Assembly: GCF_012927445.1 (NCBI RefSeq)
Contig: NZ_JABBPD010000007.1
Span: 186,001 to 250,000, forward strand
DNA: 64,000 nucleotides
From: Rhodoferax sp.
GTDB lineage: Bacteria > Pseudomonadota > Gammaproteobacteria > Burkholderiales > Burkholderiaceae_C
Direction of reading: 5' to 3'
Every line of letters begins with the position of its first letter. Position 1 is the first letter of the stretch. The notes beneath the pieces were generated by a model, which was not told the origin of the DNA, made no database searches, and saw only the letters and a list, made by a program, of their open reading frames with translations. The translations under genes were made by a program, and so were the position numbers. Below, piece by piece: positions 5,236-38,828 of this stretch.

Positions 5236-6042
5236 TCAGGACACAACCCAGCCAGCCGCTCTGGCCAGCATCAATGCCGCCACCCCCAAGCTGAACCAGG
5301 CAAACGCCTGTTGCAGACGGGCGGCGTTGAGCTTGCCGGCCAGCTGGCGTCCCAGCAGCAAGGCCAACACGGCGCCCAAGGCGAACGGCAGCGCCACCGC
5401 CCAGGGCAGCGAGCCGTGCCAGGCCGCGGCGGAAACCCCGCTCAGGGAAACCAGGGCAATCACCGCCAGCGACGTCACCTGAACACTGCGCATGTCCAGA
5501 TCGGTGTACCGCGTCAGCGCCGGGACGATGACAAAACCGCCACCGACGCCGAGCAAGCCGCTGAGCAGTCCCGAGATCAGGCCGGTGCCAGCCAGCGCGC
5601 GGGCGCACGGCAGCGTCCAGGTCAGGCGTTGATCCGCATGGCTCACATGGCAGGGCACGGCCACCGGGCTTTGTCGGCTCGGCGGCGGGCGTTTGAGCAT
5701 GCGCCACGCGGTGTAAATCAGCACCAGGGCGAAGGCGGCCAGCAACGGCCGGTTCGGCAGCCGCTGTGCCATGAAGACGCCCAGCGGCGCCACCAGCATG
5801 CCGGCCACCCCGATCAAGCCGGCGGCGCGGTAGCGCACGATGCGCTGGCGCAGTCCCAGCGTCGCACCTAAAGCGGCGGCCAGGCCGACCGCCACCAAAC
5901 CCACCGGCGCCGCTTGTTGCACCGGCAGGTGCAGGCCAAATACCAGCAGCGGGATCGCCAGTACGCCGCCGCCGGCGCCGGTCAGGGCCAGCATGGCGCC
6001 AATGATGGCACCGAGTGCAATCGCCAGGGTCATGGGTTCCAT
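5236..6042 (-). CDS. TauE/SafE family sulfite/organosulfur permease
   Basis: A 268-aa membrane protein with about eight hydrophobic segments. The start used is MEPMTLAIALGAIIGA (a second in-frame ATG lies at 6033). The repeated glycine-rich motifs GAMLALTGAGGGVLAIPLL and GLLSGLLGVGGGFVIVPAL are the two halves of the TauE/SafE (DUF81) fold. The longer 402-aa ORF in the track begins in an antisense-like frame through the upstream gene and is not real upstream of 6042. It follows the persulfide dioxygenase by 10 bp, suggesting export of sulfite or another product of persulfide oxidation, an inference from context. Confidence 0.85.
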   Translation of the reverse strand: MEPMTLAIALGAIIGAMLALTGAGGGVLAIPLLVFGLHLPVQQAAPVGLVAVGLAAALGATLGLRQRIVRYRAAGLIGVAGMLVAPLGVFMAQRLPNRPLLAAFALVLIYTAWRMLKRPPPSRQSPVAVPCHVSHADQRLTWTLPCARALAGTGLISGLLSGLLGVGGGFVIVPALTRYTDLDMRSVQVTSLAVIALVSLSGVSAAAWHGSLPWAVALPFALGAVLALLLGRQLAGKLNAARLQQAFAWFSLGVAALMLARAAGWVVS

Positions 6043-6052
6043 CGGTGGGCGC

Positions 6053-6913
6053 TCAGAGGACGTTGATTGGAATCTTGAGGTAGCGCACGCCGTTGTCTTC
6101 CGGCGGCGGCAGTTGGCCCGCCCGCACATTGACCTGCACGGAAGGCAACAGCAGCCGCGGCATTGCCAGGATTTTGTCGCGCGCCGTGCGCATGCTGACA
6201 AACTCGGCTTGCGTGATGCCGTCATGCACATGGATGTTTTTTTCGCGCTCCTGCCGCACGGTGGTGACCCATGCCGGTGCGCGTCCCGCCGGGGGATAGT
6301 CGTGGCACAGATGGAGTTGTGTCTCGGGCGCGAGGGCCAGCACCTTGTGGATTGAGCGGTACAGGGTGGCGGCGTCGCCGCCGGGAAAGTCGCAGCGTGC
6401 CGAGCCGTAGTCGGGCATGAACAGCGTGTCGCCGATAAACGCATGCTGGCCCACCACGTAGGTCAGACAGGCCGGGGTGTGGCCCGGCGTGTGCATGACG
6501 CGGACGTCGAGGGCCCCGATTTGGAACAACTCACCGTCCTCAAACAGGTGATCAAACTCAGCGCCTTCGGTGTTCATGTCCGGGGCATTGAAGAGCTTCT
6601 TGAATACCGCCTGGACGTCGCAAATATGGCGCCCGATGCCCATTTTTCCACCCAGTTGCGCCTTGAGATAAGGCGCGGCCGACAAGTGATCGGCGTGGGC
6701 GTGCGTCTCCAGCAGCCATGCCACCGTCAGCCCCGCTTGCCGGACATGCTCGATGACTTTGTCAGCGCTGGCGTGTGAAGTACGACCCGACTTCGGATCG
6801 TAGTCCAGCACACTGTCGATGATGGCCGCACGGCGCGTCACCGGGTCGGACACGATGTGCGTGACAGTGGCCGTGTCGAGATCAAAGAAGGATTGGATGG
6901 TGGGTTCTTGCAT
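6053..6913 (-). CDS. Persulfide dioxygenase-like MBL-fold protein (Blh/ETHE1 type)
   Basis: A 286-aa metallo-beta-lactamase-fold protein with the metal motif HAHADH, then HTPGHTPACL, GDTLFMPDYGSARCDFPGG and HLCHDY. This is the Blh subgroup of ETHE1-like persulfide dioxygenases, mononuclear iron enzymes that oxidise glutathione persulfide to sulfite. All expected ligands are present. Upstream is a single-domain rhodanese and downstream a TauE-type permease, the classic sulfide-detoxification arrangement. The usual BigR repressor gene is not next to it. It is cytoplasmic, with no signal peptide. Confidence 0.88.
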   Translation of the reverse strand: MQEPTIQSFFDLDTATVTHIVSDPVTRRAAIIDSVLDYDPKSGRTSHASADKVIEHVRQAGLTVAWLLETHAHADHLSAAPYLKAQLGGKMGIGRHICDVQAVFKKLFNAPDMNTEGAEFDHLFEDGELFQIGALDVRVMHTPGHTPACLTYVVGQHAFIGDTLFMPDYGSARCDFPGGDAATLYRSIHKVLALAPETQLHLCHDYPPAGRAPAWVTTVRQEREKNIHVHDGITQAEFVSMRTARDKILAMPRLLLPSVQVNVRAGQLPPPEDNGVRYLKIPINVL

Positions 6914-6938: not shown

Positions 6939-7319
6939 TTAGCCGAAGGTCGGCACGCTGGGTTTCACGACCGGTTTGCCGGCACCCGACCAGGCGTCAA
7001 ACCCGCCGCTGATGGACTGGACCTGCAGATAGCCCATCTCATGCAGCGCGCAGGCCGCCAGTGCGGCGCGGCCGCTGGTCTTGCAGTACAACACGATCTT
7101 GAGGTCGCGCGAGCTGAGTTCCGGGGCGTTGCTGAGCTTGAATTCCAGCATGCCACGCGAGGCATGAATGGCGCCGGGCAGGTGGCCCGCGCCGTACTCG
7201 TCGGCCTCGCGCACGTCGAGCAACACATCGGCCTCACGAATGGCCTGGTCGGCATCCGCAAGAGAGACTTCCTGAATGCGTGACTTGGCAGCGGTAACGA
7301 GGTCGTGAACAGTTTTCAT
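6939..7319 (-). CDS. Single-domain rhodanese (sulfurtransferase)
   Basis: A 126-aa protein with the rhodanese signature: DVREADEYGAGHLPGAIHA and the catalytic loop YCKTSGRAALAA, with the persulfide-forming Cys near residue 83. The final domain reads GFDAWSGAGKPV. Single-domain rhodaneses paired with ETHE1-like dioxygenases move sulfane sulfur between thiosulfate, glutathione and protein acceptors. It is the first gene of the sulfur operon, 25 bp upstream of the dioxygenase. No signal peptide is present. Confidence 0.9.
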   Translation of the reverse strand: MKTVHDLVTAAKSRIQEVSLADADQAIREADVLLDVREADEYGAGHLPGAIHASRGMLEFKLSNAPELSSRDLKIVLYCKTSGRAALAACALHEMGYLQVQSISGGFDAWSGAGKPVVKPSVPTFG

Positions 7320-8309: not shown

Positions 8310-8954
8310 TTACAGCGATTTGGTCGAGTAGTACCAGTCCGTCGTGTCGTAGCCTTCAGTGAGGCGCTTGTCGGCGGCCGCTGCGGTCTTGGGTGGTGGC
8401 ACGATCACGGGGCAGCCTGGCGTCCAGTTTTCAGGTGTGGCTACGCCGTTGGCATCAGACGTCTGCATGGCGGTCAGCAGGCGCACGAACTCGTCAATAC
8501 TGCGGCCATTGCTCATGGGGTAGTACACCATGGCACGCAAAATACCTTTGGGGTCAATGAAGAACGTTGCGCGCACGGCCTGCGTGTCGGCGGCGCCCGG
8601 GTGGATCATGCCGTAGGCGCGGGCCACATCCATCTTGATGTCTTCAATGATCGGGAATGGAATGTCAACGCCAAATTTTTCCTTGATATTGCGCGTCCAT
8701 GCCAAGTGTGAAAACAGGCTGTCAATCGACAGGCCGAGCAACTCGCAACCCATCTCGGTGAACTTGGGTGCGGCCTTGGCAAACCCGATGAACTCCGTGG
8801 TGCAGACGGGTGTGAAATCGGCGGGATGCGAGAAAAGAATCAGCCACTTTCCCTTGTAGTCGGCGAGCGTGCGGTCGCCATGCGTGGTCTTGACATTGAA
8901 GTCAGGCGCCTGCTCGTTGAGATGGGGGAAGCTGACTTGTTGAACATTTTCCAT
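8310..8954 (-). CDS. 1-Cys peroxiredoxin (Prx6 family)
   Basis: A 214-aa thiol peroxidase. The peroxidatic Cys51 lies in PADFTPVCTTEF, and the long C-terminal extension (RSIDEFVRLLTAMQTSD, WTPGCPVIVPPP) marks the Prx6/AhpC-like 1-Cys class, which reduces H2O2 and alkyl hydroperoxides. A second Cys occurs in the GCPVIVP segment, as in many bacterial members. Cytoplasmic. It is monocistronic, with an AT-richer upstream region of about 115 bp. A good GGAGTTA ribosome-binding site precedes the ATG. Confidence 0.92.
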   Translation of the reverse strand: MENVQQVSFPHLNEQAPDFNVKTTHGDRTLADYKGKWLILFSHPADFTPVCTTEFIGFAKAAPKFTEMGCELLGLSIDSLFSHLAWTRNIKEKFGVDIPFPIIEDIKMDVARAYGMIHPGAADTQAVRATFFIDPKGILRAMVYYPMSNGRSIDEFVRLLTAMQTSDANGVATPENWTPGCPVIVPPPKTAAAADKRLTEGYDTTDWYYSTKSL

Positions 8955-10511: not shown

Positions 10512-10934
10512 TCAGGCCGTACAACTGTGGCTGCCATCGGTGTTGACCAGATGATTGGCCATCTGGGAAAAAGTTTCAATCAGACGGGCGCGAAACGCGA
10601 CGTCCGCCACCTGCTCGGTCAGCGCCTGCGTCATGCACAGCATCCACTCGTCGCGCACCACCGAACCGACTGCGTAGGGGGCGTGGCGCATGCGCAATCG
10701 CGGATGCCCCTTTTTTTCGATGTAGAGAGACGGCCCGCCAAACCAGCCCGACAGAAATTCGAACAGACTCTGGGCACTGCCGTTGAGGCTTTCCGGGTGC
10801 ATTTGACGCACGGTGTAGGCCTCGGGCAGCTCATCCATCAACGCATAAAAGCGCTGCACCAGGCGCTGCACGCCGGCCTCGCCGCCCAGCGTGTCATAAA
10901 GGGTTGTGGTTGCTTCAGCAGCAGTTTGTGGCAT
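10512..10934 (-). CDS. Group II truncated hemoglobin
   Basis: A 140-aa globin of the 2-on-2 type: TLYDTLGGEAGVQRLVQRFY (B-helix Tyr30), 'FLSGWFGGPSLY' and the proximal histidine in MRHAPYAVG (His84), followed by the G8 Trp in RDEWMLCM. These residues define trHbO-like proteins, which bind O2 and NO and are linked to nitrosative or low-oxygen stress. Its position 9 bp after ccoG inside a cytochrome bd operon supports a role under microaerobic or NO-stress conditions. Cytoplasmic. Confidence 0.9.
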   Translation of the reverse strand: MPQTAAEATTTLYDTLGGEAGVQRLVQRFYALMDELPEAYTVRQMHPESLNGSAQSLFEFLSGWFGGPSLYIEKKGHPRLRMRHAPYAVGSVVRDEWMLCMTQALTEQVADVAFRARLIETFSQMANHLVNTDGSHSCTA

Positions 10935-10943
10935 AGCCCATCC

Positions 10944-12380
10944 TTATCTAGGAACCAAGAAAACCGATTTTTCCGTCAAGTGACCCGCCGAGTCCAGCGC
11001 GTCAATCTGAAACTGCATCGCATGCGAACCCGGAGCCGCCACATCCGCCGGCGCCTGCACCCGCACCGGCACCACCCGCGCCTCGGTCGAGGCCACCATC
11101 ACCACGTCTTCCGACGTCACCACCAGGCCTGGCAGACCAGACACGGTGATTTTGTAGTGTTGCGGCGCCTCGGTGGCGTTCATCACCTGCAGACGGTACA
11201 CGTTCTCGATCTTGCCACCGGCCACTTCGCGCGCCATGACGCCGCGGTCGCGCACCACATTCACCTTGAACGGTGTACGCAGTGCCAGACTAACCAACAT
11301 GGCCATGACGATGGTAGCCAGAATAGCGGTGTAGACCAAGACCCGCGGCCGCAGCACATGGCGCAAGGTCTGCGCCTGGGTCCAGTGCTGCTGCATGGCG
11401 TTCTCTGTCGTGTACTTGATCAGGCCGCGGGCGTAGCCCATTTTGTCCATCACGGTGTCGCACACATCGACGCAGGCGCCGCAGCCAATGCACTCGTACT
11501 GCAGGCCTTTGCGGATGTCAATGCCGGTGGGGCAGACCTGGACGCACAGACTGCAGTCGACGCAGGCGCCCAGATTCAGCGTGGTGATATCGGCCTTGCG
11601 GGAGCGGGCGCCGCGGGGCTCGCCGCGCTCCTCGTCATAGGTGACGATCAAGGTGTCTTTGTCAAACATGGCGCTTTGAAAGCGCGCGTACGGGCACATG
11701 TGTTTGCACACCTGCTCGCGCATGAAACCGGCGTTGCCGTAGGTGGCAAAGCCGTAGAAGAAGGTCCAGAACACTTCCCACGAGCTCATGCTCATCTGCA
11801 GAAACTCCAGGCCCAGGTCTTTGATCGGGGTGAAGTAGCCGACAAAGGTGAAGCCGGTCCACAGCGCCACCGCCAGCCAGACCAGGTGTTTGGCGGTTTT
11901 GCGCCCCACTTTGTCGAGCGACAGCGGCTTGGCGTCGCGGCGCATGCGGGCCGAGCGGTCGCCTTCAAACTTCTTCTCGATCCAGAGGAAGATTTCGGTG
12001 TAGACCGTTTGCGGGCAGGCATAACCGCACCACAGGCGGCCGGCCACGGCGGTGAAGAGAAACAGCGAGAGCGCGGAGATGACCAGAATGCCGGTCAGGT
12101 AGATGAAGTCCTGCGGGTACAGCACCAGGCCAAAGATGTAGAAGCGCCGGCTCCCCAGATCAAACAATATGGCTTGCCGTTGGCCCCATTCGAGCCATGG
12201 CAAGCCATAAAACACGAGCTGGGTCAGGAACACCATGCCCCAGCGCCAACTGGAGAACAGGCCCGAGACGCTGCGGGGGTAAATCTTCTCGTGCGAGGCG
12301 TACAGTGAAATCAACACTTCTTCCGCCTCTTGCGGCACGATGGGGATGACTTTTCTGACCTCGTGGGTTTCGTTATTCAC
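10944..12380 (-). CDS. ccoG: Cytochrome c oxidase accessory protein CcoG (FixG-like), copy 1
   Basis: A 478-aa membrane ferredoxin starting with GTG. Helices near residues 45-60, 90-110 and 160-180 surround the first motif CGYACPQTVYTEIF. Next come CKHMCPYARFQ and a double 4Fe-4S domain CVDCSLCVQVCPTGID / CIGCGACVDVCDTVMDK, then a periplasmic C-terminal beta domain. CcoG participates in Cu(II) reduction during cbb3 oxidase assembly, yet no ccoNOQP genes are in this window; here it sits in a cytochrome bd operon. Its GTG overlaps the stop of the upstream MBL gene (GTGA). A second copy is at 37.3-38.7 kb. Confidence 0.93.
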   Translation of the reverse strand: MNNETHEVRKVIPIVPQEAEEVLISLYASHEKIYPRSVSGLFSSWRWGMVFLTQLVFYGLPWLEWGQRQAILFDLGSRRFYIFGLVLYPQDFIYLTGILVISALSLFLFTAVAGRLWCGYACPQTVYTEIFLWIEKKFEGDRSARMRRDAKPLSLDKVGRKTAKHLVWLAVALWTGFTFVGYFTPIKDLGLEFLQMSMSSWEVFWTFFYGFATYGNAGFMREQVCKHMCPYARFQSAMFDKDTLIVTYDEERGEPRGARSRKADITTLNLGACVDCSLCVQVCPTGIDIRKGLQYECIGCGACVDVCDTVMDKMGYARGLIKYTTENAMQQHWTQAQTLRHVLRPRVLVYTAILATIVMAMLVSLALRTPFKVNVVRDRGVMAREVAGGKIENVYRLQVMNATEAPQHYKITVSGLPGLVVTSEDVVMVASTEARVVPVRVQAPADVAAPGSHAMQFQIDALDSAGHLTEKSVFLVPR

Positions 12381-13076
12381 GTGGTTTCCTTCAATTGATC
12401 GGTTTCACTGGCGTGGGGCTGCTGCAGGTGGCCCAGCACGGGCGGGTCGGGCAGCGCCGCTATTTGCGCTAAAAATTCATCGCGGGTCAGCCCGGCAAAC
12501 AAGGGATGCCAGCGCCGCTGCTCCAGCACCGTGCTGACGGCGCGGGCGCGCTGCTCATGGCCGGCGAACAGCAGAGTCTCGTCGGGCAGGTTGAAGACGC
12601 GTTGCGTCACGCTGTCCCACAAGGCCTCGGGCGCGGCCGGACTGGGCTGGTGCGGCCGGACGGGGCTGGTGCGGGCAGGCCTGCACGGCCAGCAGGCCAC
12701 CGCAAAACAGCCGGTCGCGCCAGGCAAAGCTCAGGCAGGTGGCAGTGTGGCCGGGCGTGGCCAGCACGCGCACCAGCTCATGGCCGAACGGCAGCACGTC
12801 GCCATCGGCGGCGCTGCGTGCCAAGCCTTCGGCATGGCCTTGCAGCAGCGGGGCCTCCAGCCGGGCCAGCAGCGCTTGTTCCTGCGGTTGCAAATGGTCG
12901 TGCTGGTGGGTGCGCAGCACCCAGCGCAAGCGCAACTCGCGTTCGGCCAGCAGCGCTGTCAGGACGAGCAGATCGGCCCCGCGCAGGTCAATCAACACGG
13001 CCTCACGCGTGTCGAGGTCGGCCAGCAAATAGGTGAGCTCACCACTGGCTTCGTCGTGAAGGATGCGGAAATACAT
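12377..13076 (-). pseudogene. ETHE1-like MBL-fold hydrolase, frameshifted by a 19-bp tandem duplication
   Basis: Two overlapping ORFs (12555-13076 and 12377-12727) together make one MBL-fold protein. The first gives MYFRILHDEASGELTYLLAD, the metal motif THQHDH and ATPGHTATCLSF. The second gives the C-terminal part WDSVTQRVFNLPDETLLFAGH and 'STVLEQRRWHPLFAGLTRDE', typical of ETHE1-like proteins. The join coincides with a 19-bp near-perfect tandem duplication (12633-12670). Removing one unit restores a single frame of about 226 codons ending at the ccoG GTGA overlap. The usual Asp of the GDxLL motif is Gly (FCGGLLAV), so even the repaired protein may be altered. Sequencing error cannot be excluded. 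Confidence 0.75.
12633..12670. repeat. 19-bp tandem duplication inside the MBL gene
   Basis: Two adjacent 19-bp units, GCGGCCGGACTGGGCTGGT and GCGGCCGGACGGGGCTGGT, differ at one base. Because 19 is not a multiple of three, the second unit shifts the reading frame of the MBL-fold gene. Frame arithmetic (start frame 13076, end frame 12377) agrees exactly with a net 19-bp insertion. Confidence 0.9.
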
Positions 13077-13077
13077 A

Positions 13078-13395
13078 TCAAACTCCCCAGCGCAGCCAGG
13101 CCGCCACGATCAGCCCCAACGAACAAGACCAGCCCGAGAACAGCCGGCGCCAAAGCCAGTGGCGTGGCACGAAGCCGACCCCGTGCACGAATCCAGCGCT
13201 CATGGCACAGAACAGGGCCATCGCCAAGCCATGGTCGACCGTCCCATTGGCGCGCGCAAATACCAACGGATAAATGCTTCCCCCCAGCATGATGACCAGC
13301 GCCGCGATCAGGCTGGGCAGATGAATGGCCGCCCGGTCTGGCACGGTTGGCGCAACCCCTTCATGCACAGCCGATGACATCACCGGCGTCACCAT
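13078..13395 (-). CDS. ybgE: Cyd operon protein YbgE
   Basis: A 105-aa membrane protein with three hydrophobic stretches (SLIAALVIMLGGSIYPLVFA, GLAMALFCAMSAGFVHGVGF, CSLGLIVAAWL). The GFVHGVGF-P motif in the second helix is characteristic of the YbgE family encoded with cydABX. Function is not established; it is associated with cytochrome bd oxidase. Its ATG overlaps the end of cydX by 7 nt (ATGGTGA), indicating translational coupling. Confidence 0.85.
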   Translation of the reverse strand: MVTPVMSSAVHEGVAPTVPDRAAIHLPSLIAALVIMLGGSIYPLVFARANGTVDHGLAMALFCAMSAGFVHGVGFVPRHWLWRRLFSGWSCSLGLIVAAWLRWGV

Positions 13396-13511
13396 GGATC
13401 GTCCCCTTTACGCGCCTGTGCGCGGGCCGCCTCATTCTCGCCCCACATGGCGTTAAGAATGGCCAGCAAGACGGCAAAGCCGACTCCCAGTATCCAGGCG
13501 AAATACCACAT
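13389..13511 (-). CDS. cydX: Cytochrome bd oxidase small subunit CydX
   Basis: A 40-aa ORF too short for the ORF track. The protein starts MWYFAWILGVGFAVLLAILN, the hallmark CydX sequence (E. coli begins MWYFAWILG), followed by a polar tail with ENEAA. CydX is a single-helix subunit of cytochrome bd that stabilises the haems. A strong ribosome-binding site AAAGGAGAAGAAA immediately precedes the ATG. It lies between the Rieske gene and ybgE and overlaps ybgE by 7 nt. Confidence 0.95.
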   Translation of the reverse strand: MWYFAWILGVGFAVLLAILNAMWGENEAARAQARKGDDPW

Positions 13512-13534
13512 TTTCTTCTCCTTTATGTTAATGT

Positions 13535-14164
13535 TCAGGCGGCGCTTGCGTCGTCTTCACCGATCAGCAGTCGGCTATCAGAGAGGTATTTGTGCGGCGG
13601 CACTTCCAGGTTGCTTGGTGCCGGTTTGTTTTTGAAGACGCGGCCCGCCAGGTCAAACGTGGAGCCGTGGCAGGGGCAGAAGAAGCCGCCCTGCCAGTCG
13701 CCACCCATGCTCGGGTTGCTGGAGCCGGCCGGCACTTTGCTGGGCGAGCAGCCGAGGTGGGTGCAGATGCCCACCGCGACAAATACTTCGGGCTTGATGG
13801 AACGGTGTTCGTTGCGCGCGTAGTCAGGCTGCTGATTGACTTTTGACGCCGGGTCGACCAACTGGCTGTCCAATGCGGACAACGCAGCCAGCATCTCCGG
13901 CGTGCGGCGCATCAGCCACACCGGCTTGCCACGCCATTCCACCATCTTGAGTTCGCCGGGCAGGATGTCTGCAATGTCGGCCTCCACGCTCGCGCCCATG
14001 GCACGGGCGCGTTCGCTGGGCGCAAAGCTGGTAACAAACGGGACCGCTGTCGCTACCGCGGCCACGCCTGCGGTGGCGGCGGTGATCAGGACCCACTTGC
14101 GACGCTCGGCATCGTGTTCATGGGTAGGGTCGGCAAGGGAGGTAAAGGCAGGGCAAGTCGTCAT
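13535..14164 (-). CDS. Rieske iron-sulfur protein (PetA-like) inside the cytochrome bd operon
   Basis: A 209-aa protein closely resembling the Rieske subunit of the cytochrome bc1 complex. It has an N-terminal RRKW twin-arginine-type signal anchor with a hydrophobic helix (about 25-45) and an EWRGKPVWLMRRTPE strand. The 2Fe-2S ligands are all present in CTHLGC (134-139) and CPCHGS (163-168), so the cluster should form. No cytochrome b or c1 gene follows; instead the gene is flanked by cydB (34 bp upstream) and cydX (23 bp downstream), with the same strand and tight spacing. Whether it works with the bd oxidase, the bc1 complex or something else is unknown. Confidence 0.92.
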   Translation of the reverse strand: MTTCPAFTSLADPTHEHDAERRKWVLITAATAGVAAVATAVPFVTSFAPSERARAMGASVEADIADILPGELKMVEWRGKPVWLMRRTPEMLAALSALDSQLVDPASKVNQQPDYARNEHRSIKPEVFVAVGICTHLGCSPSKVPAGSSNPSMGGDWQGGFFCPCHGSTFDLAGRVFKNKPAPSNLEVPPHKYLSDSRLLIGEDDASAA

Positions 14165-14198
14165 GACATTCTCTTGGTTGGCAAGCTAAAAGGGAGGG

Positions 14199-15335
14199 TC
14201 AGTACGCGGCATGCTCGTGTTCCTTGATGAAAGCGGCGGTTACTTTGCCGCGCATGACGCGGTAGGCCCAGGACGTGTAGAGCACGATCAGCGGCATGAA
14301 AATCAGCGTCGCCCAAAACATGATGCCCAGGCTCAGGTGGCTGGAGACACTGTCCCACACCGTCAGGCTGGCGGCCGGCATGGAGCTCGACGGCATGATG
14401 AAGGGGAACATGGAAGCGCCCGCCGTGCCTATCACGCCCACCAGGGCCAGCGACGAAGCCACAAAAGCGCTCAGCGTGTGACGCGCCAGCAGCAAGCCAG
14501 CCGCCAGCAGGGCACCTGCCACACCCAGGGCGGGCAGCAGCCAGATCAAGGGCTGGCGGCCATAGTTGGCCATCCAGGCGCCGGCCTCGCGCACCACCGT
14601 CTTGCTCAGCGGGTCTGGCAGCGCGGCGGGATCGATGACCGAGGAAATGCGGTAGCCGTCAATGCTTTGCAGCCACACGCCCGCCGCCACAAAAGCCAGC
14701 ACCATGATGATCGCCGCCCCGATGGCACCCTTGATCGCCCGCGCCTGAATCACGCCTTCGGTACGGTGCGCCAGATAGGTGCCGCCGTGCATCGTGATCA
14801 TGGCGCTGCTCACCACGCCGGCCAGCAGGGCAAACGGGTTGAGCAACTGCCAGAAACTGCCGGTGTAGGTGGAGACCAGGTAGTTGTCGAACTGAAACGG
14901 CACACCCTGCAGCAGGTTGCCAAAGGCCACGCCAAAGATCAACGGCGGCACCGCGCCGCCGATGAACAGGCCCCAGTCCCAGGTGCTGCGCCAAGTGGCG
15001 TTGTGAATTTTGCTGCGATAGTCAAACCCAACCGGGCGGAAGAACAGCGCCCACAGCACCACCAGCATGGCCCAGTAAAAACCGCTGAACGCCGTGGCAT
15101 AGACGAGCGGCCAGGCCGCAAAGATGGCACCACCACCGGTGATGAACCAGACCTGGTTGCCTTCCCAGTGCGGCCCCACGGTGTTGATCACCACGCGGCG
15201 CTCCAGGTCGCTCTTGCCGACAAAGGGCAGCAGCGTGCCCACGCCCATGTCGTGGCCGTCCATGATGGCAAAGCCCACCAGCAGCACGCCCACCAGCAGC
15301 CACCAGATGATCTTGAGAGTTGAGTAGTCAAGCAT
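14199..15335 (-). CDS. cydB: Cytochrome bd ubiquinol oxidase subunit II
   Basis: A 378-aa membrane protein with eight to nine helices. HWEGNQVWFITGGGAIFAAW and 'YRSKIHNATWRSTWDW' are conserved CydB segments, and the length matches E. coli CydB (379). It forms the pseudo-symmetric partner of CydA in the quinol oxidase. It follows cydA by 22 bp and precedes the Rieske gene by 34 bp. Confidence 0.97.
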   Translation of the reverse strand: MLDYSTLKIIWWLLVGVLLVGFAIMDGHDMGVGTLLPFVGKSDLERRVVINTVGPHWEGNQVWFITGGGAIFAAWPLVYATAFSGFYWAMLVVLWALFFRPVGFDYRSKIHNATWRSTWDWGLFIGGAVPPLIFGVAFGNLLQGVPFQFDNYLVSTYTGSFWQLLNPFALLAGVVSSAMITMHGGTYLAHRTEGVIQARAIKGAIGAAIIMVLAFVAAGVWLQSIDGYRISSVIDPAALPDPLSKTVVREAGAWMANYGRQPLIWLLPALGVAGALLAAGLLLARHTLSAFVASSLALVGVIGTAGASMFPFIMPSSSMPAASLTVWDSVSSHLSLGIMFWATLIFMPLIVLYTSWAYRVMRGKVTAAFIKEHEHAAY

Positions 15336-15357: not shown

Positions 15358-16914
15358 TCAGGCGTGGGCGGGTTCCAGGTCATAGCGGCCGGTACCCAAA
15401 CTGCCGGGCCCCATGCGCGCAAACTTGACCATCAGAAACATCTCCACCACCAACAGCACGGTGTAGAAACCAATATAGCCGGCAAGCGAGCCATACAGGC
15501 TGTTGACGCTCAGCGTGGACACGCTCATATGGGTCGGCAGCACGCCGTAAATCGTCCAGGGCTGGCGTCCGTACTCGGCCACAAACCAGCCCAGCTCACA
15601 CGCAATCCAGGGCGCGGGCAGCATCCATAACGCCCACTTGAGCAGCCATGATTTTTGCATGTTGACGGATTTGAGCGTGTTCCAGAAGGCCAGCCCAAAC
15701 AGCAGCAGCATCGCAAAACCCAGACCGACCATGATGCGGAAAGCCCAGAACATCGGCGTCACGCGCGGCACGGTGTCGTTCACCGCGCGCTCAATGATCG
15801 CGGGCGTGGCCTGGTTCACATCAGCCACATATTTTTTGAGCAGCAGACCAAAACCAAGGTCGGCCTTGTGACCCTCGAACACCTTTTTCGCCACCGAATC
15901 ATCGCGATGGGCACGCAGGGCTTCGAGTGCGTTCACGGCCACAATACCACGCAGAATACGTTCACGGTTCTTGGTCTTGATCTCGTGGATGCCGGGAATT
16001 TCTTTGCTGATGGAGCGCGTGCCGATCAGGCCCATGAGCCACGGAATCTCGATTTCCCAGTCGTTCTTTTGTTCGGCTTCGTTGATGTCGGCCACCAGCG
16101 TCAGGCCAGCCGGTGCCGGTTTGGTCTCCCACATGGCTTCCATGGCCGCCAGCTTGGTCTGCTGGGCCTCGCCCACGGTGTAGCCAGATTCGTCCCCCAG
16201 CACAATCACGCTCAGCACCGACGCCAGGCCAAAGGCGGCGGCGACGCGAAAGCTGCGTTTTGCAAATTCAACATCGCGCCTTTTGAGCAAATACCAGCTG
16301 GAGATGGATAGCACAAACATGGCGCCCGTCACGTAGCCGGCCGACACCGTGTGCACGAACTTGGCCTGTGCGTCGGGGTTGAACACCACAGCCCAGAAGT
16401 CGACCATTTCCATGCGCATGGTCAGGTAACTGAACTCGGAGCCCACGGGGTTTTGCATCCAGCCATTGGCAATCAAGATCCACAGTGCGCTGAGGTTGGT
16501 GCCGATCGACATGAGGACCGTTACCATCAAGTGCTGCGTTCGGCTCAAGCGATCCCAGCCGAAGAAAAACAGCCCGATCATGGTCGATTCGAGAAAGAAG
16601 GCCATCAGCCCTTCAATCGCCAACGGCGCGCCAAAAATGTCGCCTACATAGTGCGAGTAATAGGCCCAGTTGGTACCAAACTGGAACTCCAGCGTGATGC
16701 CGGTGGTCACGCCCAAGGCAAAGTTAATGCCGAACAGCTTGCCCCAGAAGCGCGTCATGTCCTTCCAGACCACGTTGCCCGTCATGACATAAACGCTCTC
16801 CATGATGACCAGCAGCCACACCATGCCAATGGTCAGTGGCACAAACAGAAAGTGGTACAGGGCCGTGGCGGCAAACTGCAGCCGTGACAGGTTGACCAGT
16901 TCTTCAGAAATCAT
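15358..16914 (-). CDS. cydA: Cytochrome bd ubiquinol oxidase subunit I
   Basis: A 518-aa protein from [20 protein letters not shown]; the track's 552-aa form has a spurious leader. Key segments are visible: the haem-ligand His in the first helices, the quinol-binding Q-loop with [12 protein letters not shown], and the signature [12 protein letters not shown]. The long region between helices 6 and 7 and the total length place it in the long-Q-loop (E. coli-like) class. It oxidises ubiquinol and reduces O2 with high affinity in the inner membrane. Its ATG overlaps the stop of cydP (ATGA). Confidence 0.97.
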
Positions 16915-17093
16915 TGCGGTAGTCCTTTGGCCGGGATGGGGGCGCTCTGCAAAAACTGCGCGGCCACGCTGTTTGTGTCCACCGTCACACGTTGTTCCCG
17001 CACAAAACCCCACCACAGCGCCACCAGCACGGCGAGCTTGATCACCAGCACCACAGCCAGTTTTCTAACGAGGGTTTTGTCCAGAGGTTTCAT
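16911..17093 (-). CDS. cydP: Cytochrome oxidase putative small subunit CydP
   Basis: A single-helix protein of about 60 aa ([28 protein letters not shown]), the first gene of the cyd operon. The pattern of a short basic N-terminus, one membrane helix, [13 protein letters not shown] and a short periplasmic tail is that of CydP, found before cydA in beta- and gammaproteobacteria. An alternative ATG lies 9 bp upstream (17102). It overlaps cydA by 4 nt (ATGA). A candidate sigma-54 promoter lies about 30 bp upstream. Confidence 0.85.
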
Positions 17094-17122
17094 GACAGTC
17101 ATTACGCTTATCCCTACTGTAT

Positions 17123-17138
17123 ATCAAGAACCGCGCCA
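17123..17138 (-). promoter_or_regulatory. Candidate sigma-54 (-24/-12) promoter for the cyd operon
   Basis: On the minus strand TGGCGCGGTTCTTGAT matches the sigma-54 consensus TGGCACG-N4-TTGCW in spacing and in the invariant -24 GG. It departs at the -12 position (GA instead of GC). Predicted transcription would start about 10-20 nt before the cydP ATG. The adjacent divergent gene encodes a GAFTGA-containing sigma-54 activator, which makes the assignment more credible. Confidence 0.5.
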
Positions 17139-17222: not shown

Positions 17223-17274
17223 TGCCACAATTGGCAAAAGCTGCCATTTTTGGCATAAGCTGACATTCCTCACA
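17223..17274. promoter_or_regulatory. Phased palindromes, putative activator (UAS) sites
   Basis: Two 14-bp palindromes TGCCA-N4-TGGCA occur in tandem: TGCCACAATTGGCA (17223-17236) and TGCCATTTTTGGCA (17242-17255). They are separated by AAAGC. A TAAGC spacer is followed by a degenerate third copy TGACATTCCTCACA (17261-17274). The period is exactly 19 bp. The array is about 85-150 bp upstream of the candidate sigma-54 promoter and just before the activator's own GTG, a layout typical of enhancer-binding protein sites. Confidence 0.65.
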
Positions 17275-17286
17275 CAAGGAGCCCCT

Positions 17287-18636
17287 GTGAAGCCATTGCC
17301 CGAACTCATGTCGTATTTGGAAGGATTGAGCGAGCCGCACATCCTGTTTGACACGCAGTACCGCATCCTGGCCGCCAACGCCGCTTACCGGCGTCAGTTC
17401 AGCCCCGAGCGCAGCGTGGTCGGGCGCACCTGCTACGAGGTCTCGCATCGTTTTAACGTGCCGTGCGACCAGGCGGGCGAATCGTGCCCCTTGCTCAAGG
17501 CGCGCGAATCCGGCCAGCGCGAGCGGGTGCTGCATCTGCACCACACGCCCAAGGGCGAGGCCTACGTCAATATTGAACTGGCGCCGCTGCTGGATGCGAC
17601 TGGCCAGCAGGCCTTCTACATTGAAAAAATGGAGGCGCTGCGTGTGGCGCAGGGCCAGTCGGCCGCACAAGGCCTGATTGGCCGGGCGCCCGCCTTCCAG
17701 CACATGCTGGCGCTGGTGGCCCGTGTCGCGCCGTCGCAGGCGACGGTCTTGTTGCTGGGGGAATCGGGCACCGGCAAAGAGTTGGTGGCCCGTGCCGTGC
17801 ACGAGACCAGTCCACGCGCCCACCGCGCCCTGGTGGCGGTGGACTGCGCCAGTCTGCCGGAAAACCTGTTTGAGTCCGAGCTGTTTGGCCACGAACGCGG
17901 CGCCTTCACCGGCGCCAACACCGCCCGCGGTGGGCTGGTGGAGGCGGCCAGCGGCGGCACGCTGTTTCTGGACGAAGTGGGCGATATTCCGCTGGTGATG
18001 CAGGTGAAGCTGCTGCGCCTGCTGGAGACCGGCACCTACCGCCGCGTCGGCAGCACCGAGCAGCGCCATGCCGATATTCGCGTGGTGTCAGCGACCCACC
18101 GCGACCTCGACCGGATGGTGGCGGCGGGAACCTTTCGGGAAGACTTGTACTACCGGCTGAGCACCTTTCCGATCCACCTGCCGTCCTTGCGCGAGCGCCG
18201 TGACGATATTGGGCTGCTGGCGGCGGCCCTGCTGGAGCGGGTGGCGCCGCAACGCAAGCTGCAGATCAGCGAACCGGCGCTGCGCCTGCTGCAAGAGCAG
18301 GACTACCCCGGCAATGTGCGTGAACTGCGCAACCTGCTGGAACGCACGGCGCTGCTGTGTGACGGCGACACGCTGGAAGCCGGCCATGTGCAGCAGGCGC
18401 TGCGGTCCGGCCGGCGCCCGGCCGCTGCGCCGCCACGCAATCTGCCAGCGCCCGATCGCGCCACCGCCGCCAGCGATACCGCGGACATCCCTCCGGTGCC
18501 CGGCGCCCTCAAGACGCTGGAGCGCGCAGCGCTGCAGCAATTGGTCAGCGGCCACCAGGGCAGCCGGGCCGCGCTGGCCGCCCAACTGGGCATCAGCGAG
18601 CGCTCGCTGTACCGCAAGCTGAAGGCACTGCAATGA
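17287..18636 (+). CDS. Sigma-54-dependent activator with Cys-containing PAS domain
   Basis: A 449-aa protein from the GTG at 17287, which has AAGGAG 7 nt upstream; the track's longer 569-aa start is unlikely. Residues about 5-115 form a PAS domain carrying C49-x4-H54-x5-C60-x6-C67 ([17 protein letters not shown]). The AAA+ domain has Walker A GESGTGKE (158-165), GAFTGA (205-210) for sigma-54 contact and LFLDEVGD for Walker B. The C-terminus is a Fis-type HTH ([20 protein letters not shown]). It is divergent from the cyd operon, so that operon is its likely target. The signal is unknown; the Cys/His set suggests redox, metal or sulfur sensing. Confidence 0.9.
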
Positions 18637-21771: not shown

Positions 21772-23196
21772 TCAGTGCTCGGCGTGCAGCTTGGCGTGAA
21801 TGCGCCGCGTCGTGTACCAGACCGCCCACAGCACCAGCGGCACCAGCGCGCCGGCCGCCATTTCCGGGTTCAGCGGCACGCCCGCCGCCTTGAGCGCCTT
21901 GCCGCCATAGAGCAGCAGGCTGATGACGTAATACGAGATGGCGGCGATCGACAGCCCTTCCACCGTGCTTTGCAGACGCAGCTGCAGCTCCTGCCCGCGT
22001 GTCAGCTTTTCCAGCAGTTGCTGGTTTTGCACTTCGGTGGCAATGTCGACCCGTGTGCGCAGCAGCGCGCTGGTGCGCGACACCCGTTCCGACAGCGAGG
22101 CCAGCCGCTGCGCCGTCGCCGCCACCGTGGCCATGGCCGGCGACAGGCGCCGCTGCATGAACTCGCCAATGGTCTGGGTGCCGGAGATCGCTTTCTCGCG
22201 CAGCTCGGTGATGCGCTGGCCGACCAGCGTGTCGTAGGCCCGCGTCGCCGAGAAGCGGTAGATGTGCTCGGCCGTGGCGCGCTCGACCCGGGCCGCCAGC
22301 GAGACCAGCGTGTCGAGCAAGTCCTGATCGGAGGCAGTCTTGTGTTCCAGCCGCGCCGTGATGCCGGCCAGCGCGTCTTCGGCCTCGGCCAGCATCGGCC
22401 CGAGTTGCTTGGCCACCGGCAGGCCACGCAGCGCCATCAAACGGTAGGTTTCCAGCTCCAGCAGGCGCTGCGAGATGCGCCCGGTGCGGGTCTCGCTGGT
22501 GCCGGGCGGCGCCACCACCAGCATGCGCTCAAAACCGTCGGCGCCGATGCGGAACTCGGTTAGCGCCCACGAGTGGCCCTGGGCCTGCCCTGGCGTCAGC
22601 AGCGGGTTCGGCACATGGCCCAGCTGCGAAGCCACCACGGTGCGGCCGCCAAACCAGGCTTGCGCCTGCGCCATCAGGGCCCGCTGGTCGGTCAAATCGC
22701 CGTGCAGCATGGCCATCTGGATGGCGGCCACGGTACGTCCGGGAATGCTGCGCAGCCAGTCCGGCGCCACCACCAGGGCCGACAACAAATCCGGCTCTTC
22801 GGCCCCGAGCAGCGCCCCGGCGGGCAGCGCCTGCACGATGGAGTAACGCGTGAACTCGGTGTGCCGCTCCCACTTGACGGTGTAACCCTCAAAACGCAGC
22901 CGCAAAAAATTGCCGTGTAAACGGTCCAGCGGCAGCTCCTGCTGGCCGGGCAGGCGGCGCAGATGGGCGCATTCCTGCTCGCGCGTGACGCCCGCATTCA
23001 GCACCGCCACGTAGATGATGAGCGCCGGCAGGCGCACCCGCGCCGACGGCCGCGCATGCACCTCGTTGTGCAGCGTGACCCGCAGCGGATCATCCGGCGG
23101 CAGCAGGGAGGTCAGGGGCGCAAGAGCGGTTGGAGCGGACCGGGGGTCCAGTGGGGCGGTAGGTTGCATGCGGGCTATTTTGCCGTCAATCAGCAC
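21772..23196 (-). CDS. DUF3422 family protein
   Basis: A 474-aa protein. 'PPDDPLRVTLHNEVHARP' near the N-terminus is the DUF3422 hallmark, and VKWERHTEFTRYS and two C-terminal hydrophobic segments (IAAISYYVISLLLYGGKAL, ALVPLVLWAVWYTTRR) complete the family pattern. A helical region between residues 260 and 400 may form a coiled coil. It is probably an inner-membrane protein of unknown function, common in Burkholderiales and Rhizobiales. Monocistronic. Confidence 0.88.
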   Translation of the reverse strand: MLIDGKIARMQPTAPLDPRSAPTALAPLTSLLPPDDPLRVTLHNEVHARPSARVRLPALIIYVAVLNAGVTREQECAHLRRLPGQQELPLDRLHGNFLRLRFEGYTVKWERHTEFTRYSIVQALPAGALLGAEEPDLLSALVVAPDWLRSIPGRTVAAIQMAMLHGDLTDQRALMAQAQAWFGGRTVVASQLGHVPNPLLTPGQAQGHSWALTEFRIGADGFERMLVVAPPGTSETRTGRISQRLLELETYRLMALRGLPVAKQLGPMLAEAEDALAGITARLEHKTASDQDLLDTLVSLAARVERATAEHIYRFSATRAYDTLVGQRITELREKAISGTQTIGEFMQRRLSPAMATVAATAQRLASLSERVSRTSALLRTRVDIATEVQNQQLLEKLTRGQELQLRLQSTVEGLSIAAISYYVISLLLYGGKALKAAGVPLNPEMAAGALVPLVLWAVWYTTRRIHAKLHAEH

Positions 23197-37283: not shown

Positions 37284-38732
37284 TTAGCGCGGTACTAAAA
37301 ACACCGATTTTTCAATGAGGTGTCCGGGCGAGTCCAGCGCGTCAATTTCGAACTGCATGACGTGTGAGCCTGGGGTGGCGGCATCAAACGGCAGTTGCAC
37401 CCGCACCGGCAACCAGCGCGCCTCGGTGGCTTCCACGGTGACGACATTTTCGGAACTCAGCACCAGACCGGGCAGACCCGTCGCGGTGATTTTGTACCGG
37501 TGGGTCGATTCGGTCGCGTTCATCACCTGGAGTCGATACACATTTTCGATCGTGCCGCCCGCCACAATGCGCGTCATGACGCCCCGATCGCGCACCACAT
37601 CGACCTTGAACGGCGTGCGCAACGACAGACTGACCACCATGGCCAGCACCATGGTGCCCAGCACGGCGGCATAAATCAGCACGCGCGGCCTGAGCACATG
37701 ACGCAGGGTTTTGGCTTGGCTCCAGTGCTGGCTCATGGCGTTTTCAGTGGTGTACCGGATCAGCCCGCGTTCGTAGCCCATTTTGTCCATGACCGTGTCG
37801 CAGACATCGACGCAGGCACCGCAGCCAATGCAATCGTGCTGCAGACCGTTGCGAATATCGATACCGGTCGGACAGACTTGAACACACAGGGTGCAGTCCA
37901 CACAGGCGCCCAGGCTTAACGTGGAGAGTTCATCCTTGCGTGACCGGTTACCCCGTGGTTCACCGCGTTCCTTGTCGTAGGTGACGATCAGGGTGTCGTT
38001 GTCAAACATGACGCTTTGAAATTGCGCATACGGGCACATGTGTTTGCAAATCTGTTCACGCATGAACCCCGCATTGCCGTAGGTGGCAAAGCCGTAGAAA
38101 AAAGTCCAGAAGACTTCCCATGAATTCACGCTCATCTGCAAAAACTCGCCACCCAGTTCCTGGATCGGCGTGAAATAGCCGACAAAGGTAAAACCAGTCC
38201 ACAGCGCCACGGCCAGCCACAGCAAATGTTTGGTACTTTTGCGCAGCACCTTGTTCGCGGACATCGGCTGCGCATCACGGCGCATGCGGGCCGAGCGCTC
38301 CCCTTCGACCTTCTTTTCGATCCAGAGAAAAATCTCGGTGTAGACCGTTTGCGGACAGGCATAACCGCACCACAAACGGCCGGCCACCGCGGTGAACAGA
38401 AACAGCGACAGGGCGGAGATCACCAGAATACCGGCGAGATAAATAAAATCTTGCGGGTACAGCACCAAGCCAAAGATGTAGAAACGCCGGGTGCCGAGAT
38501 CGAACAGCACCGCTTGGCGCTGCCCCCACTCGAGCCACGGCATGCCATAAAACACCAGCTGGGTCAGGAACACCATGCCCCAGCGCCAGCGCGCGAACAG
38601 ACCGGAGACACTGCGCGGATAGATCTTCTTGTCGCTCGCATAAAGAGAGAGCAAAGCCTCGTCGCCTTCAAATGCCTGGCCAATGGGTATGTACCCCTCT
38701 TGCGGGAGGATGGGGATGACTTTGCGGGTCAT
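37284..38732 (-). CDS. ccoG: Cytochrome c oxidase accessory protein CcoG (FixG-like), copy 2
   Basis: A 482-aa protein from MTRKVIPILPQEGYIPIGQA; the track's 511-aa start is unlikely. All motifs of copy 1 are kept: CGYACPQTVYTEIF, CKHMCPYAQFQ, CVDCTLCVQVCPTGID and CIGCGACVDVCDTVMDK. The two copies are nearly identical through the membrane and ferredoxin parts and differ at the N-terminus and in loops. This one is monocistronic, with its own promoter region. It is a paralogue that could act under different conditions or be a relic of duplication. Confidence 0.93.
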   Translation of the reverse strand: MTRKVIPILPQEGYIPIGQAFEGDEALLSLYASDKKIYPRSVSGLFARWRWGMVFLTQLVFYGMPWLEWGQRQAVLFDLGTRRFYIFGLVLYPQDFIYLAGILVISALSLFLFTAVAGRLWCGYACPQTVYTEIFLWIEKKVEGERSARMRRDAQPMSANKVLRKSTKHLLWLAVALWTGFTFVGYFTPIQELGGEFLQMSVNSWEVFWTFFYGFATYGNAGFMREQICKHMCPYAQFQSVMFDNDTLIVTYDKERGEPRGNRSRKDELSTLSLGACVDCTLCVQVCPTGIDIRNGLQHDCIGCGACVDVCDTVMDKMGYERGLIRYTTENAMSQHWSQAKTLRHVLRPRVLIYAAVLGTMVLAMVVSLSLRTPFKVDVVRDRGVMTRIVAGGTIENVYRLQVMNATESTHRYKITATGLPGLVLSSENVVTVEATEARWLPVRVQLPFDAATPGSHVMQFEIDALDSPGHLIEKSVFLVPR

Positions 38733-38828
38733 CGTTTCATTCTTGTTCAAAGGCGATCTTTCTGAGAGTCGGTTTTTGAAATGCATACGAAATAGCACCG
38801 CGATAAGGTGGGCTTTCAATCAGATAGT

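Follow-up and report, generated by a model that had tools for sequence, protein, structure and literature searches.

The cydB–cydX gap of this Rhodoferax bd-I oxidase operon holds a second gene for a standard component of the respiratory chain, the Rieske [2Fe-2S] protein of the bc1 complex (hereafter PetA2, with PetA1 for the copy within petABC). Judged by the company it keeps in related genomes, PetA2 is tied to a FisR-like regulator and not to bd oxidase, and we consider it probable that it is a bc1 Rieske isoform co-induced with a sulfide-resistant bd oxidase in reactive-sulfur stress, the regulatory part of this reading being predicted from sequence. On the minus strand of the window (the whole stretch of 64,000 nucleotides that was analysed), open reading frames give the order cydP, cydA, cydB, Rieske, cydX and ybgE, with each gene backed by profile searches. 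The features of the locus and its surroundings are:

5236–6042, minus strand: TauE/SafE sulfite exporter (PF01925, 150.8 bits)
6053–6913, minus strand: persulfide dioxygenase (PDO), HxHxDH intact, sharing 62% identity with the C. metallidurans PDO that is linked to FisR
6939–7319, minus strand: rhodanese (PF00581)
8310–8954, minus strand: peroxiredoxin (NF009668, 289 bits, over the cut-off)
10512–10934, minus strand: truncated globin (PF01152)
10944–12380, minus strand: accessory ccoG copy (TIGR02745, 519.8 bits)
12381–13076, minus strand: MBL-fold protein with distant likeness to persulfide dioxygenase (profile search) and a degenerate metal motif; the gene is broken
13078–13395, minus strand: ybgE (PF09600)
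13389–13511, minus strand: cydX (TIGR02106, PF08173)
13535–14164, minus strand: petA2, second bc1-type Rieske [2Fe-2S] protein, 209 aa, with an N-terminal Tat-type anchor (ORF, motifs, TIGR01416, PF00355, PF10399, Foldseek)
14199–15335, minus strand: cydB, bd-I oxidase subunit II (TIGR00203, 509.6 bits)
15358–16911, minus strand: cydA, bd-I oxidase subunit I (PF01654, NF011677), with its start at the conserved MISEEL in preference to the GTG farther upstream that the ORF list gives
16914–17102, minus strand: cydP, small subunit and first gene of the operon (NF045611, 52.9 bits, cut-off 29.6)
17124–17138, minus strand: sigma-54-like promoter TGGCGCGGTTCTTGA, 22 bp ahead of cydP
17223–17255, strandless: palindromes TGCCACAATTGGCA and TGCCATTTTTGGCA, candidate FisR sites
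17287–18636, plus strand: fisR-like sigma-54 activator with a PAS domain carrying C-x10-C-x6-C, an AAA+ domain and a Fis HTH; proposed GTG start
21772–23196: DUF3422 gene

The preliminary description of a complete Rieske gene between cydB and cydX holds, with gaps of 34 bp (14165–14198) and 23 bp (13512–13534), respectively. Its product scores 210 bits against TIGR01416 (curated cut-off 97.4) and keeps both cluster-binding loops, CTHLGC and CPCHGS, as well as the proline loop PAPxNL, while its Tat/anchor domain lies exactly at the Pfam cut-off for PF10399 (24.0/24). The top Foldseek match of its AlphaFold model, itself of modest confidence (mean pLDDT 75.6), is the Rieske protein of P. aeruginosa bc1-cbb3 (8smr_C), and the fold fits bc1 Rieskes. 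Neither petB nor petC adjoins the gene, and the PetB profile found zero matches across the first 45 kb of the window, in line with the earlier remark that no cytochrome b gene is nearby. Besides PetA2, TIGR01416 matches a single protein of the genome (3.94 Mb in 10 contigs, completeness 100%), namely PetA1, whose gene is followed by petB on a separate contig. Comparison of the two proteins, suggested in the same description as a check, gave 65% identity. PetA2 is therefore encoded by a second petA outside petABC, as a paralogue of PetA1, which is the pattern of an exchangeable second Rieske; linkage to petB and petC is usual for a bc1 Rieske and not required, as known solo isoforms do without it. 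A displaced sole bc1 Rieske was ruled out, since a second petA exists within petABC. A plasmid tblastn search with this Rieske as query returned matches that were all below 60%.

In phylogenetic trees, PetA2 is a clade apart from petB-linked Rieskes. A single branch with 100/100 support split a family tree of 34 Rieskes into 22 non-petB and 12 petB-linked rows, and in a 142-row tree 27 non-petB rows formed one clade (100/98 support), to which we apply the name PetA2; the L087 row carries the label solo but is probably a PetA1 from the end of a contig. Four Rhodocyclaceae non-petB Rieskes were placed outside the clade in the tree. Convergence, in the form of independent Rieske recruitment in Rhodocyclaceae (L097, L106, L118), was dropped as a claim, as a single clade of PetA2 with these three was not rejected (p-AU 0.39). 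Scores of an order-wide search do not separate PetA2 from PetA1, and the spread past the family is sketched only. The clade is marked by consistent changes close to the cluster: a charged pair, K/R144 and D184, occurs in 103 of 111 PetA1 proteins, and neutral residues occupy these positions in 27 of 27 PetA2. One PetA1 (L134) has the charges at 144 and 184 swapped (E, K), suggesting that the two residues touch. Loss of the pair may alter the cluster surroundings, and because it is lost in every PetA2, the isoform is perhaps not fully equivalent to PetA1.

Chance does not explain the arrangement cydB–Rieske–cydX, since Aquabacterium olei, a Dechloromonas MAG and, within the family sample, at least four further genomes (G037, G049, G054, G196) have it too. 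Conservation in relatives, on which the preliminary description had made the arrangement's significance depend, is thus confined to a minority for the exact slot, and it is the link to FisR that is conserved. In Rhodoferax ferrireducens OTU1, whose Rieske (87% identical to PetA2) is the nearest named one among the matches listed, FisR faces the Rieske gene, followed by the MBL-fold protein and CcoG, and there is no cydAB at the locus; this order is repeated in genome G051 (93% complete), where cydB gave no match. FisR likewise faces the Rieske gene directly without cydAB in Acidovorax delafieldii, G092, G011, G137 and others. The Rieske gene may also lie ahead of cydP (L041), past ybgE (L053) or past a CIO-type cydB (L049), and FisR may face cydPABX with no Rieske (L055, L058, L059, L184, L192), PDO with or without SQR (L188, L189 with pdo only, L191) or a lone ccoG (L182, L185, L186, L187, L190), the last of which suggests that CcoG is a frequent FisR target. 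In genome G026 (L055:3894-7461), an octaheme tetrathionate-reductase-family cytochrome and a cytochrome b561 fill the cydB–cydX gap, in the Rieske's place. Because its contents vary, the cydB–cydX slot looks like a landing place for accessory redox genes, not the position of a bd subunit. More generally, position inside an operon is by itself no reason to take an embedded gene for part of the oxidase. On a Pseudoalteromonas xiamenensis plasmid (L142), a related sigma-54 regulator faces cydP-cydAB-cydX-ybgE, with cydA and cydB annotated as one 2.7-kb cydB CDS.

Counts across 201 family genomes, drawn evenly over genera, bear out the link to FisR: 21 have PetA2 (assigned by tree and context, some genomes whose second Rieske match was weak being omitted), while bd-I cydB is present in 46 and a FisR-like regulator in 37. 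PetA2 and FisR occur together in 15 of the 21 PetA2 genomes against 22 of the 180 others (odds ratio 18, p = 1.6e-8 by a Fisher test, which, like those below, takes no account of shared ancestry), and lie <8 kb apart in 13 of these 15 genomes, being on different contigs in the other two. PetA2 and bd-I coincide in nine genomes, a weak association (odds ratio 2.9, p = 0.03), with bd-I cydB missing in 12 of 21 PetA2 genomes and PetA2 missing in 37 of 46 bd-I genomes, so that PetA2 lacks the constant co-occurrence with cydAB by which a bd oxidase subunit would be recognised. FisR and bd-I are found together in 20 genomes (p = 3.7e-6). No FisR was found in 6 of the 21 PetA2 genomes, and some other control must therefore exist there. 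PetA1 is present in every PetA2 genome; because it is likewise present in nearly all family genomes, this is no test of whether PetA2 depends on bc1.

The regulator has the domains of a FisR protein, with a PAS sensor (PF08448), a sigma-54 AAA+ domain (PF00158) and a Fis HTH (PF02954). Its cysteine triad, C-x10-C-x6-C, is invariant over the loci examined, at what we take to be the spacing of C53, C64 and C71 in Cupriavidus pinatubonensis FisR. FisR is reported to sense sulfane sulfur via three conserved cysteines (PMC9774590) and to switch on sulfide-oxidation genes in response. A C. metallidurans relative of the window protein (52% identity) is flanked by PDO, SQR and TauE genes, which is the known FisR setting. 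Genetic linkage to pdo or sqr comes from this relative and from the three loci noted above where FisR faces PDO; in the window, PDO lies ~10 kb off.

Control DNA of a common design accompanies these regulators. A palindrome of the form TGCCA-N3/4-TGGCA with a sigma-54-like site was present in 17 of 22 FisR upstream regions, scored as a palindrome with at most one mismatch followed 50–200 bp on by the sigma-54-like site, with cydPAB or the Rieske gene as the target; mononucleotide shuffles gave 0, and the 17 are not 17 independent events, related sequences sharing part by descent. Upstream of the R. ferrireducens Rieske gene lie GTGGCACGGTTCTTGAA and a near-palindrome. The window site has TTGA, not TTGC, as its −12 element, and many of these sigma-54-like sites carry A or T at the −12 base, where C is usual. 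We regard the palindromes as candidate FisR binding sites.

Sulfur and redox genes surround the locus, the same-strand cluster of the window continuing to peroxiredoxin, rhodanese, PDO and TauE. Elsewhere in the genome is a gene for an SQR-like flavoprotein 76% identical to that of L048, and an SQR of the C. metallidurans type is absent from the genome (best E 1.7e-6). There are three ccoG copies, one of them ~2 kb past ccoN, which makes the operon copy an extra one; the third (37284–38819 of the window) is 80% identical to the operon copy and lies away from ccoN and FisR. Compared with R. ferrireducens, the MBL-fold gene past ybgE is interrupted by an inserted 19 bp, and its relatives are intact, but without the HxHxDH and GD metal ligand of persulfide dioxygenases.

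Taken together, the cited work on FisR, on cydAB and on second Rieskes and the sequence evidence make it most likely that the FisR-controlled operon combines a sulfide-proof quinol oxidase with a spare bc1 Rieske. In Acinetobacter baumannii, sulfide raises cydAB transcription and bd resists sulfide (PMC7315123). We propose that rising sulfide or polysulfide would trigger the FisR-type activator through sulfane sulfur; that FisR would bind the TGCCA-N3/4-TGGCA palindromes and fire the sigma-54 promoter ahead of cydP; and that presumed co-transcription would yield the sulfide-resistant CydPABX quinol oxidase together with PetA2, and probably also the downstream extra CcoG. PetA2 would then enter bc1, whose PetB and PetC are encoded elsewhere, replacing PetA1 or beside it, and would keep the branch from quinol through cytochrome c to cbb3 running under sulfide, with bd as a parallel route for quinol from sulfide oxidation. 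On a wider and more tentative view, to which we give somewhat less than even credence, the whole set would form a sulfide-stress respiratory kit in which FisR drives a sulfide-proof quinol oxidase along with spare parts for the cytochrome c branch, namely the altered-cluster Rieske isoform and the extra cbb3 assembly factor CcoG.

The alternative that survives best is that PetA2 is a bc1 isoform for low oxygen, its link to sulfur secondary and the cysteines of the FisR-like protein sensing oxygen or redox state. Microaerobic regulons typically include bd oxidase, CcoG and truncated globin, and the second Rieske of Mesorhizobium loti is expressed only under low oxygen, though in its own bc1 cluster (PMC6256036). 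FisR relatives, however, face PDO–SQR, and genes for PDO, TauE, FCSD and SQR-like proteins are clustered at PetA2 loci, which leaves this reading unlikely. Of the preliminary suggestion that the gene encodes a bc1 isoform switched on in low oxygen, the isoform has held up, with a separate petABC, intact motifs and a paralogue clade, whereas the low-oxygen signal has not, FisR and sigma-54 pointing to sulfane sulfur.

Action outside bc1, for instance with octaheme tetrathionate-reductase-family cytochromes or sulfide-oxidising flavoproteins, seems less probable again. Octaheme cytochromes lie near solo Rieskes at five loci (L035, L043, L097, L106, L138; TIGR04315 in the four tested), a proximity that could point to a partner other than bc1, FCSD or SQR-like genes are close to the Rieske at L038, L043, L048 and L063, and PetA2 has lost the charged pair near its cluster; yet there is no constant partner over the PetA2 loci, and all bc1 Rieske motifs are retained. 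At L106 and L138, the Rhodocyclaceae solo Rieske adjoins octaheme cytochrome genes and no FisR gene was found nearby.

We judge it very improbable that PetA2 serves bd oxidase as a further subunit or as a periplasmic electron port, as its position had first suggested: cydB–Rieske–cydX does recur, and elsewhere the gene keeps close to cydP, ybgE or a CIO-type cydB, but most bd-I operons are without PetA2, the association is weak, some genomes carry PetA2 without any bd-I, the R. ferrireducens locus is free of cydAB, and G026 fills the same gap with other genes. The third role offered in the preliminary description, a redox sensor, found no support. Variable gene order and the 22 of 37 FisR genomes with no PetA2 could make it a passenger, a petA duplicate that FisR controls and that serves no particular purpose, which is hardly credible for a long-lived clade with consistent residue changes that is kept by FisR in many genera.

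Second Rieske genes were already known, and their purpose is the question addressed here. With one second-Rieske clade now tied to a sulfane-sulfur activator, there is a specific condition under which to test it, namely sulfide or polysulfide, and the possibility arises that bacteria exchange a bc1 subunit under sulfide besides moving to bd oxidase. If the respiratory kit is real, it would let bc1 and cbb3 stay working while sulfide damages iron–sulfur clusters or ties up copper.

Several known systems share parts of this design. The gene order CydA, CydB, CydX, YbgE is common to E. coli cydABX-ybgE and the window, whereas the window operon has an inserted Rieske, a leading cydP and apparently sigma-54-dependent control. 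The FisR regulon of C. pinatubonensis and A. baumannii likewise has a three-cysteine sigma-54 activator by PDO, SQR and TauE genes, while the window FisR-like gene directly faces cydPAB and the Rieske gene; within a partial literature search, abstracts of papers naming both FisR and Rieske do not draw a link between them. M. loti Mlr0970 is also a conditionally expressed second Rieske; unlike PetA2, it belongs to a bc1 cluster of its own, and low oxygen is its signal (PMC6256036). Closest in description, as distinct from sequence or gene context, is PetA2 of Rubrivivax gelatinosus (Ouchane et al. 2005), likewise a second Rieske outside petABC in the Burkholderiales, which is reported to be interchangeable in bc1 there and functionally redundant (PMC6256036, PMC4013037). 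By this analogy, the PetA2 described here would belong among the exchangeable Rieske isoforms of the R. gelatinosus kind, with putative exchange in bc1.
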